Below, in pieces: positions 51,749 through 60,024 of a stretch of DNA of 64,000 nucleotides; position 1 is the first letter of the stretch; every line of letters begins with the position of its first letter. The notes under the pieces were generated by a model. That model was not told the origin of the DNA, did not search any database, and was given only the letters and a program-made list of their open reading frames with translations. The position numbers and the translations under genes are program-made. This DNA is from Sphaerochaeta sp. (GTDB taxonomy: Bacteria > Spirochaetota > Spirochaetia > Sphaerochaetales > Sphaerochaetaceae). Location: the NCBI GenBank assembly GCA_022482495.1, contig JAKVPA010000001.1, forward strand, positions 1 through 64,000. The letters are read 5' to 3'.

Positions 51749-52093
51749 ATGCTTCGGACACAACGGCTCCTTGCCTTTGTCGGCAGGATCCAGAACTACT
51801 GTCTCTTGTTGCTCTGCTTCTTCCTGCTGGCATACCTGGCCTGCGGTTTTTTTGCCGTCCCCGAAGATTTGATCCGTTTGCTGGTCATCTGCGCGGATGT
51901 GGTCTGTTGGACGATCTATTTCCTTTCTGTCTGGATTTTCTCGCTGTCCTTGGTGGTCTGGGGGACGACCCGGGTATTCCCCACACGGTTTTTTATACTG
52001 ATGCTGGTCCGTACGGCGGTTGCGTTCGGCCTGACGTTGCTCAGAGATTTGATCGAGCACGTGGTACAGGAAGGTATCCTTATTTCATGGTAG
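51749..52093 (+). CDS. Small membrane protein, unknown
   Basis: A 114-residue protein with three hydrophobic segments (about 17-38, 43-68, 84-100), starting at ATG 51749 with GGGAG just upstream. I do not recognise a family. It lies 8 bases before aroH and is probably co-transcribed with it. A transporter subunit or membrane stabiliser are guesses only. Confidence 0.7.
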   Translation: MLRTQRLLAFVGRIQNYCLLLLCFFLLAYLACGFFAVPEDLIRLLVICADVVCWTIYFLSVWIFSLSLVVWGTTRVFPTRFFILMLVRTAVAFGLTLLRDLIEHVVQEGILISW

Positions 52094-52101
52094 GAGGGAT
52101 C

Positions 52102-52491
52102 ATGGGTATCACTGCGGTGCGTGGAGCCATCTGCGTCAAGGAAGACGCCATCGTTTCCATTGAAGAAGCTGTGGCTAAACTATGGAAAGCGATCATCACG
52201 GAAAATCATTTGGAAGAAACGGATATTGCGTTCGTACTGTTCACCCAGACGGGGGATCTGAAAAGCAGGAATCCGGCCGGCGCGTTGCGAAAGGGTGGGT
52301 GGTGCAAAGAATTGCCGTTGTTCTGCATGCAGGAACCGGAAATTACGGGAATGATGCCGCGTGTCATCCGGTTGCTGGTGGTGCTGAAGGAAGAGACCCG
52401 CTGTCTGGTGCCGGTCTATCTGGATGGGGCGGAGCGCCTCAGGCCGGATCTACGTCAGAACGGCGTAGCGTCCGAAACAAACGTCAGGTGA
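52102..52491 (+). CDS. aroH: Chorismate mutase, AroH class
   Basis: Converts chorismate to prephenate for tyrosine and phenylalanine. The 129 residues align along their length with the monofunctional AroH fold: ITAVRGAICVKEDAIVSI, the IITENHLEETDIAFVLFTQTGDL block, CMQEPEITGMMPRVIRLLV, and VYLDGAERLRPDL. Arg in RGA and the CMQE block are active-site elements. AGGAGGG precedes ATG 52102. The last 37 bases overlap the end of the convergent lipoprotein gene. Confidence 0.92.
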   Translation: MGITAVRGAICVKEDAIVSIEEAVAKLWKAIITENHLEETDIAFVLFTQTGDLKSRNPAGALRKGGWCKELPLFCMQEPEITGMMPRVIRLLVVLKEETRCLVPVYLDGAERLRPDLRQNGVASETNVR

Positions 52492-53210
52492 TAGCCTCGT
52501 TCTTTTGCAAATGAGATGATCTTTCTGTCAGGGAGACCGTATTCTATCACGTACACGTCCAAGCCGTGCTTCTTGCTCAGCGCGAGGAATTCCGAAAGAT
52601 ACGCTTGATCGGTTTCACTTCTTCTGGCGAACATCCGGGTGGTGAAGAGTCCTTCCTGATTGACGCCGTTGACAAATCCTGATCCCTGTTCGGAAAGCGC
52701 CCGGGTGAGAAAGACATCACCGTTGTTGATGATGATTGGTTTGCCCAGGGTTTTCAGCGTGTCGAGCATCTGCACAAACGCCTGATACACGCCTTCATAT
52801 CTTCGGAACGTGTATTCGTCACATCCGTCGATGAACAGTACGTCCACACCTTTCGCGACAAGACGTTTCGCACGTTCAAGACAGTATTCCTGCCAGCTGG
52901 GATCAGAGACCTGCAACCACATCACCTGACGGTCAGGGTCATAGCCGAGCGGAGTGCCTGGATACGATTCGCCGTTCTCATGGACCGATGCGATGTCCAG
53001 ATAGCCATAGACGAACGTGGAACGCTTCTGGATTTCAGCAATGTCTTCTGCCGTCAGAAGCGTGGGGTCGACCACCACCAGGCTCTTTCCCTGAGCGAGG
53101 GTGATGATGTCATGGGAGTTTGATCTGGAGACGACTGCGTACCCGGAATCCGTCGTCATGCATCCTGAGAACAGAAGCGCGCAAAGCACCACAACTGATA
53201 CGTACCGCAT
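52455..53210 (-). CDS. Lipoprotein related to glycoside hydrolase family 114 (TM1410-like)
   Basis: The 251 residues have a signal peptide with lipobox FSGC (C17). The mature domain follows the endo-alpha-1,4-polygalactosaminidase-like barrel: STFVYGYLDIASVHENGESY, VMWLQVSDPSWQEYCLERA, KGVDVLFIDGCDEY and KPIIINNGDVFL. The acidic residues of FIDGCDE and the glutamate near the end (VIEYGLPD) could be catalytic. Its substrate would be an amino-sugar polysaccharide such as a biofilm or envelope polymer. It is outward facing. AAAGGATG lies before the ATG. Confidence 0.75.
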   Translation of the reverse strand: MRYVSVVVLCALLFSGCMTTDSGYAVVSRSNSHDIITLAQGKSLVVVDPTLLTAEDIAEIQKRSTFVYGYLDIASVHENGESYPGTPLGYDPDRQVMWLQVSDPSWQEYCLERAKRLVAKGVDVLFIDGCDEYTFRRYEGVYQAFVQMLDTLKTLGKPIIINNGDVFLTRALSEQGSGFVNGVNQEGLFTTRMFARRSETDQAYLSEFLALSKKHGLDVYVIEYGLPDRKIISFAKERGYHLTFVSDATPF

Positions 53211-53395
53211 TGGGCATCCTTTGATTCAGAATGCAAAACATTGTCGTGTTTGTCTATGGGAGATAATCAAAAAGAGAGAAATCTGGAGGGGTGAAGAGGA
53301 ACTAACCGAAATATTGGTCACACTTTTAGTCACACTTTCATGTTTTTGAAAATATTATTTACTTGTATTATAAGGAATTACCAAGTAAAAACGAG
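53211..53395. other. AT-rich gap on the 3' side of tRNA-Thr, possible integration scar
   Basis: The 185 bases are clearly richer in A and T than their surroundings. Two copies of GTCACACTTTTA-like sequence start at 53317 and 53329, 12 bases apart. The 3' ends of tRNA genes are common integration sites. No integrase fragment or second copy of the tRNA end is visible in the window, so this is only a hint. Confidence 0.25.
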
Positions 53396-53467
53396 AGCCG
53401 ACGGTCGGAATTGAACCAACAACCACCTGATTACAAGTCAGGAGCTCTACCATTGAGCCACGTCGGC
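53396..53467 (-). tRNA. tRNA-Thr (anticodon TGT)
   Basis: The 72-base cloverleaf has acceptor arms GCCGACG and CGTCGGC. The anticodon arm CCTGA-CTTGTAA-TCAGG reads TGT, and the T arm holds GGTTCAATTCC. CCA is not encoded. Confidence 0.94.
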
Positions 53468-53560
53468 TTGAGGCGTTCTGAATTCGCCTTGCTAGGGTAA
53501 TGCAAAACAATGATGAATTTCAAGGGGTGTCACGATGAATCGCTTTCTCTGTGAATGCGC

Positions 53561-53590
53561 TTGACGAAATATGGTGAAATGGGGTACTTT
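53561..53590 (+). promoter_or_regulatory. Promoter for tRNA-Tyr
   Basis: TTGACG at 53561-53566 and TACTTT at 53585-53590 are 18 bases apart and end 20 bases before the tRNA. No other promoter is evident before ykgJ-dnaG-rpoD, so read-through from here may also drive that operon. Confidence 0.5.
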
Positions 53591-53610
53591 CTAAGACGTC
53601 TTGAAAATCT

Positions 53611-53692
53611 GGAGAGGTTCCCGAGTGGTCAAAGGGGACAGACTGTAAATCTGCTGCTTATAGCTTCGAAGGTCCGAATCCTTCCCTCTCCA
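53611..53692 (+). tRNA. tRNA-Tyr (anticodon GTA)
   Basis: The 82-base tRNA has acceptor arms GGAGAGG and CCTCTCC and the anticodon loop CTGTAAA (GTA). A long variable arm is expected for this tRNA type in bacteria, and the T arm contains GGTCCGAATCC. CCA is not encoded. Confidence 0.95.
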
Positions 53693-53696
53693 TCCG

Positions 53697-53723
53697 AGCC
53701 TCTTCGTGGAAGAGGCTTTTTTT
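53697..53723 (+). terminator. Terminator of tRNA-Tyr that contains the ykgJ-like ribosome binding site
   Basis: AGCCTCTTC, loop GTG, and GAAGAGGCT form a 9-base stem followed by seven T. The T run ends directly before ATG 53724, and GAAGAGG in the 3' arm is placed as its Shine-Dalgarno. Confidence 0.85.
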
Positions 53724-54164
53724 ATGGGGTGCTTTTACCAACGGGGCGTACGTTTCACCTGTACGGGATGCAGGTATTGTTGTGCGGGGGAGCCGGGGTT
53801 TGTGTTTCTGACCGTTGAGGATGTCGATCGGCTTGCCGGTCGCTTTCATCTTTCTCGTGAGGTGTTCCTCCAACGGTACTGCAGGACCACACAATCCAGC
53901 GGTTTTTTCTATTCTCTTTTGGAAAAATCGGATAATGCATGTATATTTCTTACAGAGAAGGGATGCGGCGTCTATGAAGACCGGCCACTCCAATGCAGAA
54001 CCTATCCGTTCTGGATTCGGATCATGGAGAATAAAGAGAGCTGGGATGACGAGGCGCGCCGGTGTCCGGGGATGGGACATGGGGAACTGCATCCCAAAGA
54101 GGAAATCGAGGCGTGCCTCACTGCCTTGCAGCACGCCGTGCCGATGATCAAAGGGGAGGAGTAA
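53724..54164 (+). CDS. YkgJ-family cysteine-cluster protein
   Basis: The 146 residues carry the cysteine set of the YkgJ/UPF0153 family: FTCTGCRYCCAGEPG near the start, CIFLTEKGCGVYEDRPLQCRTYPFW in the middle and CPGMGHGE near the end. The cysteines are likely iron or zinc ligands; function is unproven. The start is ATG 53724; a GTG at 53706 would lie in the terminator loop. It stands between tRNA-Tyr and dnaG, and its ribosome binding site is part of the terminator stem. dnaG starts 7 bases after its stop. Confidence 0.85.
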   Translation: MGCFYQRGVRFTCTGCRYCCAGEPGFVFLTVEDVDRLAGRFHLSREVFLQRYCRTTQSSGFFYSLLEKSDNACIFLTEKGCGVYEDRPLQCRTYPFWIRIMENKESWDDEARRCPGMGHGELHPKEEIEACLTALQHAVPMIKGEE

Positions 54165-54171
54165 GGAAAAG

Positions 54172-55978
54172 GTGCCGAAGTATTCACCAGCGTTTCTCCA
54201 GTCCATCAAGGACAAACTGCTTGTCAGTGATGTGATGGGCAGGTACTCCAAACTTGTGCGCAGGGGAAACGATTATTGGTGCAATTGCCCGATCCACGGG
54301 GAAAAGACCCCTTCGCTGGTCATCCATGACGACAAGGGAACCTGGCACTGTTTCGGATGTGGGAAAGGCGGAAACATCTTCACCATCGTCCAGGAGATGG
54401 AAAAATGCTCGTTCATCCAGGCGGTGGAGATGCTCGCCCAGCAGGCTGGTCTGCAGCTTGAGGAGATGAGCCCGGAGGAGCGGGAACGCAGTGATATGCG
54501 CGAAGCTCTGTTCGAACTGTACGACCGCATCAGCAAGACGTACCACTATTTTCTCACTACGGATCCCGGTGGGGAGAAGGCGAGGGCGTATCTCCGTGAG
54601 CGGGACGTGAAACGGGAGATGTGGGAGAAATTCAATCTGGGATACGCTCCGGCGTCCTGGGATCTGTACGGATTCCTGCACAAGAAGTCGTACAGTGACG
54701 AACTGCTCAAGGCATCCGGTCTGTTTTCCCGAGATCGCTTCCCCCATGGGATCTTTTGGGATCGTCTGATGTTCCCGGTACGTACCTGGCAGGGGCGTAC
54801 CGTTGCCTTCAGTGGTCGTGATTTGACCGGGGAGAGCAAGTCAAAGTACATCAACACGCCGGAGACGCCGATCTACAGCAAGAAGCACAATCTGTTTGGC
54901 ATCTACGAATCGTTGGACTCGTTGAAAAAGCCTGATGCCTCGGCGATCATCTGCGAGGGGAATTTCGACGTGGTTGCGTTCCACCAGGCCGGTCTCGCCC
55001 CAGCGATGGCGCCCCTCGGAACGGCATTCACCGAAGAGCAGGCAAAACTGCTCAAACGGTACGTACGCAAAGTGACGCTTCTGTTCGACAGTGACAAAGC
55101 GGGGCAGAACGCAACCATCAAGGCACTGGCATTGGCACAGGCCCAGGAGCTGGAAAACAACGTCGCCGTCCTCACTTCCGGCAAGGATGCCTCGGAAGTG
55201 GTGCAGAATCATGGGGAAGAAGCGTTGCAGAACGAAGTAAACGATACGGAAAGAGGGTTTTCCTATCTTGTACAGAATGCGGTAACTCATTATGATATAA
55301 CTTCGTCTGATGGTAAATATGCCATTTTCCAGGAAGTGAAACCGTACCTTGACGCCACAACATCAAGTATTGTGCGGAATGATTTGATCAAACAACTTGC
55401 GGAGGTGCTTGAAGTTTCACAGACAGCTATCCTTGAGGATTTTTACAAAGGCAGACGTACCGAGGTCCAGCGCCCCGTCGTCAGGCAAGAGCAACAACCA
55501 ATCAAACCTCTTGACCCCTATCGCCTGAACATCGACCTGAGGACCATGCTGTATGTGGTGAATAATCGTTCATTGTTTAAGGAAGTGAGGTCCAGTCTCC
55601 AGTTCGAAGACCTCGAGGACAGGGAAGCCAAAGCGCTGTACCAGCTCCTTGAGGATGCGACACGAGAAGGGACGTTGGAGCAAAGCGACGAGTATTTTCT
55701 GCAGAAAATCCAGGACGCTCAGCTTTCCAGTGATGTCGCCGCATCATTCTCATTGGATGAATACCGGCGCAACGCAGCGAATGTGCTGAATGAAGCGATC
55801 ATACGGATTACCATACGGAACCTGCAGAAGCAACTGGAAGATTACCGGCATTTGCTGGAACTGGGCGGAGCTTCGGATGATCAGGATGAGGTCATCGCGT
55901 CATATATGATGATCAATGACCGCATCAACGCGTTACAGCAGAAATTGCTGCAGCCGGAAGGAAGAGGGTTGAATCAGG

Positions 55979-55986
<8 letters not shown>
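54172..55986 (+). CDS. dnaG: DNA primase
   Basis: Synthesises RNA primers for replication. The 604 residues have an N-terminal zinc domain with C39, H42, C60 and C63 ([19 protein letters not shown]). The RNA polymerase domain includes a TOPRIM fold: [14 protein letters not shown] near 262 (commonly EGYMDV) and [13 protein letters not shown] near 302. A C-terminal helicase-binding part follows. The start is GTG 54172 with AAGGA 4-5 bases upstream. It overlaps rpoD by 8 bases, the macromolecular synthesis arrangement in which primase and the main sigma factor share a transcript. Confidence 0.96.
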
Positions 55987-58075
<2,089 letters not shown>

Positions 58076-58091
58076 TCAGCAGGAGAAAATG

Positions 58092-58931
58092 ATGGAAGAG
58101 AAGAAAGTGTTTGAGAAACTCACCAAGTTGCAGGACTGCCTGATGCAGAAATTCACGTTGGAGGAAGAGATTGAAAAGCTTCCGAAAGACTTGAAGATCA
58201 AGCAGGATCTCTTGGCGAAGATCACCAAAGAATATACCGATGAGACCGACAAGGACAAAGCGGCGAAAGACGAGCTGAAGAGCCTCCGGTACGATTATGA
58301 CATGACGGTCAGTGCCCGGGAAGCCAGCGAAAAGAAAATGGAATCCATCAGCACCCAACGTGAGTTCGAGGCGATGGAGAAGGAAATCAACGACGCTGGC
58401 GCCAAGGAGCAGGATCTGCTCAAGCAGGTGCATGCCAAGGAACAGCAGGTGCAGGAACTTGATGCCCAGCTTGCCGAAAAAGAATCCCTTCTGAAACTGC
58501 AGCAAACCGAAGTGGAATCGGAATCCAACAAGATTGACAGTCTGACCAAGGAAAAGCAGCAGCAACTGGCTTCGGTGGAAGCTCAATGCAAGGCGTTCAT
58601 TGATGAGGACATCAACATTGACCTGTACAACAAATTCGCCAACATTGTGAAGAACAAGCATGGCAAAGGCATTGTACCGATCCATGGATTGGTCTGCCAG
58701 GGATGCCACATCATGTTGCCGATCCAGTTCGTCAATGATGTGCGTCTCGCCAAGAAGATTGAGTTCTGTCCGTATTGCTCCCGCATTCTGTACTATGAAG
58801 AAGTGGAAGGTGGAGAAGAGCAGTTCAAGAAACCGGTGAAGGATGATGAGGAGTCTGCCCCTGAGGAAGAAGAGGGTGGCGCCGAACTTTCCGATTTCAC
58901 CAGCGACGACGAATTCAACGATATTGTGTGA
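58092..58931 (+). CDS. Coiled-coil zinc-ribbon protein (CT398/CdsZ-like)
   Basis: The 279 residues form a long coiled-coil hairpin (about 5-180) and then a C4 zinc ribbon (GLVCQGCHIML, CPYCSRILYYE), followed by an acidic tail. Chlamydial CT398/CdsZ has the same layout and binds the sigma-54 factor and type III secretion parts. Here the partner is unknown, though the gene directly follows rpoD. The start is ATG 58092, 6 bases from AGGAG; the ATG at 58089 would be too close. Confidence 0.85.
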   Translation: MEEKKVFEKLTKLQDCLMQKFTLEEEIEKLPKDLKIKQDLLAKITKEYTDETDKDKAAKDELKSLRYDYDMTVSAREASEKKMESISTQREFEAMEKEINDAGAKEQDLLKQVHAKEQQVQELDAQLAEKESLLKLQQTEVESESNKIDSLTKEKQQQLASVEAQCKAFIDEDINIDLYNKFANIVKNKHGKGIVPIHGLVCQGCHIMLPIQFVNDVRLAKKIEFCPYCSRILYYEEVEGGEEQFKKPVKDDEESAPEEEEGGAELSDFTSDDEFNDIV

Positions 58932-58937
58932 TGTTTT

Positions 58938-59266
58938 CCGGTAGGACAGATGATCGCAGGATGCAATACTCCTGAGGAAAGTCCGGGCTCCATAGGACAT
59001 GACGCCGGTTAACGGCCGGCAGCGGTAACGCTCGAGATAGCGCAACAGAAAGCAAACCGCCCGCAAGGGTAAGGGTGAAATGGTGGGGTAAGAGCCCACC
59101 GCGTGTCTGGTAACAGGCATGGCATGGCAAGCCTCGTCAGGAGCAAGACCAAATATGCAGTCTGGGCTGTCCGTCTATAGGCTGCGGGTAGGTCGCTTGA
59201 GGTGTTGGGTAACCAACATCCTGGATAGATGATCATTGATACAGAACCCGGCTTATTGCCTACCGG
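58938..59266 (+). ncRNA. rnpB: RNase P RNA, bacterial class A
   Basis: The catalytic RNA that removes 5' leaders from tRNA precursors. GAGGAAAGTCCGGGCTCC starts at about 58974, ACAGAAAGCAAACCGCC follows near 59045, and GTAAGAGCCCACCG near 59089. The 3' block AGATGATCATTG-ATACAGAACCCGGCTTA is near 59225-59256. P1 closes perfectly, CCGGTAGG (58938-58945) with CCTACCGG (59259-59266), and a run of eight T follows, so P1 is also the terminator stem. It lies 6 bases after the zinc-ribbon gene. Confidence 0.95.
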
Positions 59267-59295
59267 AATTTTTTTTGAAGGAACGAGGGACGAAG

Positions 59296-60024
59296 ATGAT
59301 GGGGAGACGATCGCTTGTGCTGTTGCTCGCTCTCCTCATTGTTCTCCCTCTTGCAGCTTCCCCATCATGGGAGCGCTTCTCTGCCGAAGAGACCATCACC
59401 GTGGCCAAGGGGCAGAAGCGGATCAACGCAGAGCGCCTGTGGTGGGAAAGCACTGCGTATGAGAAGCTGGGAAAAACAGAACAGGCATATCTTGCCTTGC
59501 ATCTGTATCTTGCCATGACACCCTCGAAAGACCCACGGCACAATGAAGCTTCGCTCAAATTGGCAGCATTGGCATTCCAGACCAAACGGTACGCGATGAC
59601 ACTCTCTTTGCTTGACCAAGCGACAGAAGTGGATGAAACACTCGCCCGGTACGGCTACCAAGCGGCATTGGCCTTGGGGCGGACGGAAAAAGCGCAACAG
59701 TTGTTTTCAACCTATCTCAAAGGGACCGTCTCTCCGGTGGAATACCTCTCCATGCTGCATGGAGGAAACGCACCGGTTTCGGATGTTCTCTCCCAGATGG
59801 ACGGTTGGAACGCTAATGACGTCCTCAAGGTGTTGTTGTTCTACCAAAATGATGAACTGGCCGAATCGGATGCCGCCTTGTTGTTGGAAAAAGGACAATC
59901 CATTGAAGGGACCGCCAAAGACCAAACGACGGTGTACCAATTGCTGCAACGCTTCGCCAACCAGGCGGGGCAACGTGTACTTGCCCGCAAGTACCAGACA
60001 CTTTCCGGAGGAAATGGGAAATGA
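59296..60024 (+). CDS. Exported TPR-like protein
   Basis: A 242-residue protein with a signal peptide (SLVLLLALLIVLPLAASP). It then has helical repeats of the tetratricopeptide kind: AERLWWESTAYEKLGKTEQAYLALHLYL, EASLKLAALAFQTKRYAMTLSLLDQ and YGYQAALALGRTEKAQQLFSTYL. It is probably a periplasmic scaffold. ATG 59296 is used, with AGGGA 5 bases upstream; the earlier frame runs into rnpB. The stop overlaps the radical SAM start (ATGA). Confidence 0.8.
   Translation: MMGRRSLVLLLALLIVLPLAASPSWERFSAEETITVAKGQKRINAERLWWESTAYEKLGKTEQAYLALHLYLAMTPSKDPRHNEASLKLAALAFQTKRYAMTLSLLDQATEVDETLARYGYQAALALGRTEKAQQLFSTYLKGTVSPVEYLSMLHGGNAPVSDVLSQMDGWNANDVLKVLLFYQNDELAESDAALLLEKGQSIEGTAKDQTTVYQLLQRFANQAGQRVLARKYQTLSGGNGK

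Follow-up and report, generated by a model that had tools for sequence, protein, structure and literature searches.

A tRNA-Tyr gene as the probable head of the dnaG-rpoD operon in Sphaerochaeta, with an ordinary terminator that overlaps the first Shine-Dalgarno sequence

The locus lies in a window of 64,000 nucleotides from Sphaerochaeta sp. (assembly GCA_022482495.1, contig JAKVPA010000001.1, positions 1 to 64,000), whose draft genome comprises 2.25 Mb in 14 contigs; all features of the row described here are on the forward strand. The row begins with a tRNA-Tyr gene (anticodon gta; 53610-53695) detected by ARAGORN and matched by Rfam at 53611-53692, in which the CCA end is not encoded; a 211-base query against the draft genome found no second copy of the tRNA-Tyr region. 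Next come an intrinsic terminator (53696-53723) and a ykgJ-like gene (53724-54164), identified by its open frame, its alignment and a match to the CxxCxxCC domain PF03692, whose protein has its nearest named relatives in records of uncultured Spirochaetaceae, Sphaerochaetaceae and Spirochaetales. They are followed by dnaG (54172-55986; GTG start, own Shine-Dalgarno (SD) sequence aaggggaggagtaaggaaaagGTG), rpoD (55979-58075; own SD ggaaggaagagggttgaatcaggATG), which overlaps the end of dnaG, a zinc-ribbon gene (PF02591; 58089-58931) and the class A RNase P RNA found by Rfam (58938-59270), which starts 7 bases past the zinc-ribbon gene and ends the row. The initial annotation's view that this operon leads to dnaG and rpoD is thus borne out, and their direct succession is that of a macromolecular synthesis operon, with tRNA-Tyr and the PF03692 gene in place of the rpsU that comes first in the E. 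coli form. A tRNA, a terminator and housekeeping genes on one strand also make this a tRNA-headed layout of the metY type. A tRNA-Thr gene (53395-53467) adjoins tRNA-Tyr in divergent orientation; in the 30 loci compared, tRNA-Thr is upstream on the strand of tRNA-Tyr in 19, divergent in 6 and absent in 5.

A candidate promoter for tRNA-Tyr, TTGACG-18-TACTTT (53561-53590, forward strand), is weak when taken alone and not outstanding, since 0.105 of shuffled sequences reach its score under single-base shuffling, a lenient control that was also used for the spacers and hairpins below. Promoter-like sites (p<=0.05) occur within 75 bases before tRNA-Tyr at 49 of 75 family loci.

The terminator consists of a 5ˊ arm AGCCTCTTC (53697-53705), a GTG loop (53706-53708) and a 3ˊ arm GAAGAGGCT (53709-53717), which form nine Watson-Crick pairs with an extra G-T pair at 53696/53718; a run of seven T residues (53717-53723) ends directly at the ATG (53724-53726) of the ykgJ-like gene. 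A terminator scan of positions 52000-60000 gave 15 sites, where shuffles lead one to expect 6.9, and put this one at the top, with the most pairs. The RNA fold of 53696-53740 has an energy of -16.7 kcal/mol (z -2.7), equalled by 2 of 200 shuffles; when the folded piece is lengthened to 89 bases to take in the tRNA end, the minimum-energy structure still contains the hairpin, but as a whole it is not unusual (z -1.1). In 2000 single-base shuffles, the hairpin-plus-T-run score of the 28-base spacer was never reached. The hairpin is beyond chance.

For comparison, 32 of the 44 other tRNA matches in the window's genome were used, with 10 inner cluster genes and 2 contig-end pieces omitted. At nine of the 32 tRNA ends no hairpin passed the limit, in at least one case (L241) because the loop exceeded the length allowed by the search. 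Against the 23 other tRNA terminators, that of tRNA-Tyr scores 33.4 (median 33.2) and has a T run of 7 versus 5, with a less stable stem (-14.1 versus a median of -17.4 kcal/mol). It looks ordinary for this genome. A weakened attenuator was considered and rejected on the ordinary score and T run, even though the stem is less stable than the median; given its median score and longer T run, the terminator may allow very little read-through. At the tRNA-Thr (L219) and tRNA-Trp (L234) ends of the same genome a coding-looking start follows directly, with no hairpin over the limit, and the genes there are presumably rpmG and secE.

The 3ˊ arm contains GAAGAGG (53709-53715, forward strand), the only SD candidate before the ATG at 53724. 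The 16S rRNA 3ˊ end is GGATCACCTCCTTTCT, terminating in CACCTCCTTTCT, and GAGG (53712-53715) therefore pairs with it, leaving 8 bases to the ATG, so that the 3ˊ arm probably serves as the SD of the ykgJ-like gene. That ATG coincides with the aligned start of relatives, and the in-frame GTG in the loop (53706) was rejected as a start codon, having no SD upstream. Sequence, terminator scan, fold and 16S end together uphold what had been noticed earlier, namely a perfect 9-base stem, GAAGAGG as the sole SD and an ATG right after the T run; the alignment does not point to a different start codon, named then as an observation that would speak against the idea. An ensemble fold from the tRNA end predicts mean unpaired probabilities of 0.01 for the SD and 0.79 for the start codon. 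For SDs lying outside the hairpin in 68 relatives the predicted median is 0.34 and the lowest value 0.04, and by these predictions low SD access is not unique to the overlap. The overlap of terminator and SD gives the impression of two ordinary signals pressed together locally, not of a proven switch.

The order of tRNA-Tyr and the ykgJ-like gene is widespread. The ykgJ-like protein was found in 119 of 139 family genomes, which yielded 116 loci after omission of G063 (partial), G089 (contig end) and G132 (split). A tRNA-Tyr gene lies on the same strand at most 300 bases upstream in 92 of the 112 testable loci, 20 have no tRNA there, and four more loci are contig ends; six of the 92 had no automatic start codon and were read by hand (L188, L195, L198, L200, L202 and L205). 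Removal of duplicates left 79 distinct spacers, of which 78 have a hairpin score above the 95% limit of their shuffles. The order is also found outside the family: in a wider set of 92 distinct loci that includes other families, tRNA-Tyr is directly upstream on the same strand in 68, is not in 22, and 2 are contig ends; a hairpin with a T run is present in 65 of the 68, a count made without shuffle control. In this wider set dnaG follows the ykgJ-like gene directly in 62 of the 90 loci with at least 600 bases downstream; 8 of the remaining 28 have dnaG further along. Three of the 28 were inspected by eye: L100 has MBL-like and mltG-like frames after ykgJ, L082 an mltG-like frame and then dnaG, and L095 an MBL-like frame, the names coming from reading of the frames, not from a domain search. 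In the third species of the genus (G001), searches with the ykgJ-like protein, DnaG and the tRNA-Tyr region all found nothing, which is taken as an assembly gap.

Seven loci with a distant tRNA-Tyr (L059, L066, L068, L092, L078, L079 and L051) have, by eye, another hairpin after the tRNA; the tRNA is on the other strand in L078 and L079, and in L059 (1566-2772) tRNA-Tyr and the ykgJ-like gene are separated by a frame on the reverse strand. Since tRNA-Tyr is separated from the operon in some relatives, co-transcription is not obligatory.

Conservation in relatives, which the initial annotation had suggested as a check, thus holds for the gene order and fails for the SD overlap: 66 of the 79 distinct spacers, including that of the sister species (L002), carry an SD outside the hairpin at -3.5 kcal/mol or better; the 13 without one are L001, L128, L142, L158, L175, L177, L179, L191, L193, L199, L201, L206 and L207. 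The script placed the SD only in the hairpin in seven of the 79 (L001, L158, L175, L177, L193, L201 and L207), from which L177 and L207 were removed by hand for a downstream start with its own SD; such a start is also present in L142 and L191. An overlap with normal spacing remains only in the window (L001), L158 (same spacer as L073) and L175 (same spacer as L086). In L193, L201, L188, L195, L198, L200 and L206 there is no SD outside the hairpin, and either the arm lies a long way from the ATG or translation would have to start at a TTG; the L199 locus is incomplete, and L202 offers no SD that could be used. Apart from the window, all loci of the overlap type or without an outside SD that were read by hand belong to one genus (g16). 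The sister L002 shares the stem core CTCTTC/GAAGAGGC and has a separate GGTGG, its gap being 48 bases versus 28 in the window. A protein tree gives six changes for 11 labelled rows, which may be too many given that L198 was left unlabelled with a spacer identical to that of L195; the tree comes from a short alignment, in which the L001-L002 pairing is poorly supported (91/39). In the clade of L175, L149 and L155 (support 100/99) GGAGGCTTTTC is kept before the ATG, with tRNA-Tyr 668 or 2355 bases off in two members (L059 and L066 in the wider set), and in L149 the 5ˊ arm that would pair with it has ceased to be its neighbour. Retention of GGAGGCTTTTC without a nearby tRNA-Tyr is the best sign that such an arm may work as an SD. 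On these sequence comparisons, the SD overlap is not the conserved part of the layout.

We propose that tRNA-Tyr heads the dnaG-rpoD operon through read-through of an ordinary terminator and that the SD overlap reflects compaction and not a dedicated switch, a reading we consider probable. RNA polymerase would start at the tRNA-Tyr promoter, and most complexes would stop at the terminator while a minority continue into ykgJ-dnaG-rpoD, giving operon RNA at a low level linked to the tRNA. Once the tRNA 3ˊ end, whose CCA is not encoded, has been trimmed, the remaining mRNA would start a few bases upstream of the hairpin. The sequence shows that the window's lineage lacks the stretch found in relatives between the T run and the start codon, and the 3ˊ arm would therefore remain to serve the first gene as its SD. 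The hairpin can directly limit only the ykgJ-like gene, and should lower translation of that protein alone, since dnaG and rpoD have their own SDs. Judged from gene order, read-through from the tRNA-Tyr promoter would be the best-supported source of operon RNA. It is a more tentative idea, which we hold to be possible though somewhat doubtful, that in these spirochaetes leakage past the tRNA-Tyr terminator determines how much primase and main sigma factor is made, tRNA synthesis and the replication/transcription machinery sharing one promoter, with the hairpin also throttling the first gene in the overlap lineages.

The chief competitor places the operon promoter inside the ykgJ-like gene, at 53919-53947 or further on, so that the terminator insulates and the ykgJ-like gene is hardly expressed. 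The spacer has nothing notable to offer as a promoter, 0.955 of shuffles scoring as well as the window's and one of 79 family spacers containing a promoter-like site; to this extent the initial annotation's statement that no separate promoter is seen stands, but a 9-of-12 match, TTGGAA-17-TATATT, does lie within the ykgJ-like gene (53919-53947, forward strand). Its presence in the sister L002, the ordinary terminator and the internal promoters of dnaG-rpoD in E. coli all count for such a promoter. The site is not kept in the family. It arises from codons for the conserved SLLEK...CIFL stretch; of 109 distinct family proteins, 8 have a 9-of-12 site at this position, and ATA, the codon on which the site depends, shows no enrichment (21 of 87 Ile codons there, 257 of 789 overall). 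As a conserved element the ykgJ-internal promoter was rejected on this rarity and codon choice; a promoter inside the window's own ykgJ-like gene or dnaG is possible, and as the main source of operon RNA we regard it as rather unlikely. L010 favours read-through: there tRNA-Tyr is on the opposite strand, about 420 bases upstream, and the ykgJ-like gene has TTGACA-18-CATAAT before it. Against read-through, promoter-like sites at p<=0.05 were found in only 2 (L010 and L155) of the 20 loci without a tRNA within 300 bases, so either the promoter argument fails there or the scan is too weak. In L116, of the same genus (g19) as L010, TTTACA-17-TATAAT overlaps the terminator before the ykgJ-like gene.

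A dedicated double gate, in which one hairpin stops transcription and hides the SD until a signal opens both and so ties primase and sigma factor to tRNA-Tyr synthesis, would suit the very low predicted accessibility of the SD. It would also suit the lean of SD-like cores to the 3ˊ arm in family tRNA-Tyr terminators (57 of 78, versus 24 of 78 for the 5ˊ arm), a lean absent from the other tRNA terminators of the window's genome (7 versus 6 of 23). Yet the great majority of spacers have their SD outside the hairpin, dnaG and rpoD have SDs of their own, and Rfam at gathering scores finds no riboswitch or T-box in the window, its matches being three tRNAs and the RNase P RNA only. Nor is there any sign that the tRNA 3ˊ end pairs with the 3ˊ arm as an antiterminator, a candidate rejected because pairing with a species' own 3ˊ arm is no better than with permuted arms (-9.17 versus a mean of -9.22 kcal/mol). 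We judge the double gate improbable. Of the earlier proposal that expression is tied to tRNA-Tyr, what survives is the first gene standing behind tRNA-Tyr with no promoter seen between them; control of the operon by opening of the stem is not supported, given the separate SDs of dnaG and rpoD, the unconserved overlap and the ordinary terminator. An assembly or sequence error that removed a spacer and created a spurious overlap could be read from the 20 more bases that the sister L002 has here and from the draft state of the genome in 14 contigs, but the frame and aligned start are intact and L158 and L175 have the same compact layout, which makes such an error highly improbable.

The layout that read-through would serve combines elements of known systems with another tRNA and another first gene. 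In E. coli, as described in PMC6511841, the metY - t1/t2 - rimP - nusA - infB operon is a housekeeping operon headed by a tRNA gene, with terminators between the tRNA and the first protein gene, a tRNA cut from a longer RNA and a promoter, P2, at the 3ˊ side of metY; the operon is repressed by NusA according to PMC2965389. The window resembles the operon of PMC6511841 in its tRNA head, subsequent terminator and housekeeping genes, and differs in that no P2-type promoter was found at the same place and in the tRNA and genes concerned. In the E. coli rpsU - T1 - dnaG - rpoD operon a conserved intrinsic terminator before dnaG-rpoD is described as partly controlling rpoD RNA (PMC7863352). An intrinsic terminator ahead of dnaG-rpoD is common to both, whereas the window has tRNA-Tyr and not rpsU at its head, a ykgJ-like gene between terminator and dnaG, and a terminator that touches the start of that gene. 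The rimP-leader of PMC2965389 has a terminator 4-130 bases from the gene start that may encompass the ribosome-binding site, the wording of the source being ambiguous; the window is similar in having a terminator close to the gene start that may include this site, and unlike it in that the GGGc...gCCC stem motif is absent from AGCCTCTTC/GAAGAGGCT and that the rimP-leader, as defined in that source, does not involve a tRNA. Word searches of the open-access literature found no paper on tRNA-Tyr before dnaG-rpoD in spirochaetes, and the words dnaG and rpoD are absent from the main text of PMC10319736 on Borrelia RNA ends.

If read-through is the main source of operon RNA, expression of a single tRNA gene would supply a bacterial family with its main sigma factor as a side product. 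Growth-related RNA synthesis would thereby be coupled in a simple way to the machinery of transcription and replication, and the lineages with the overlap may serve as natural variants for testing the effect on translation of a terminator hairpin containing an SD.
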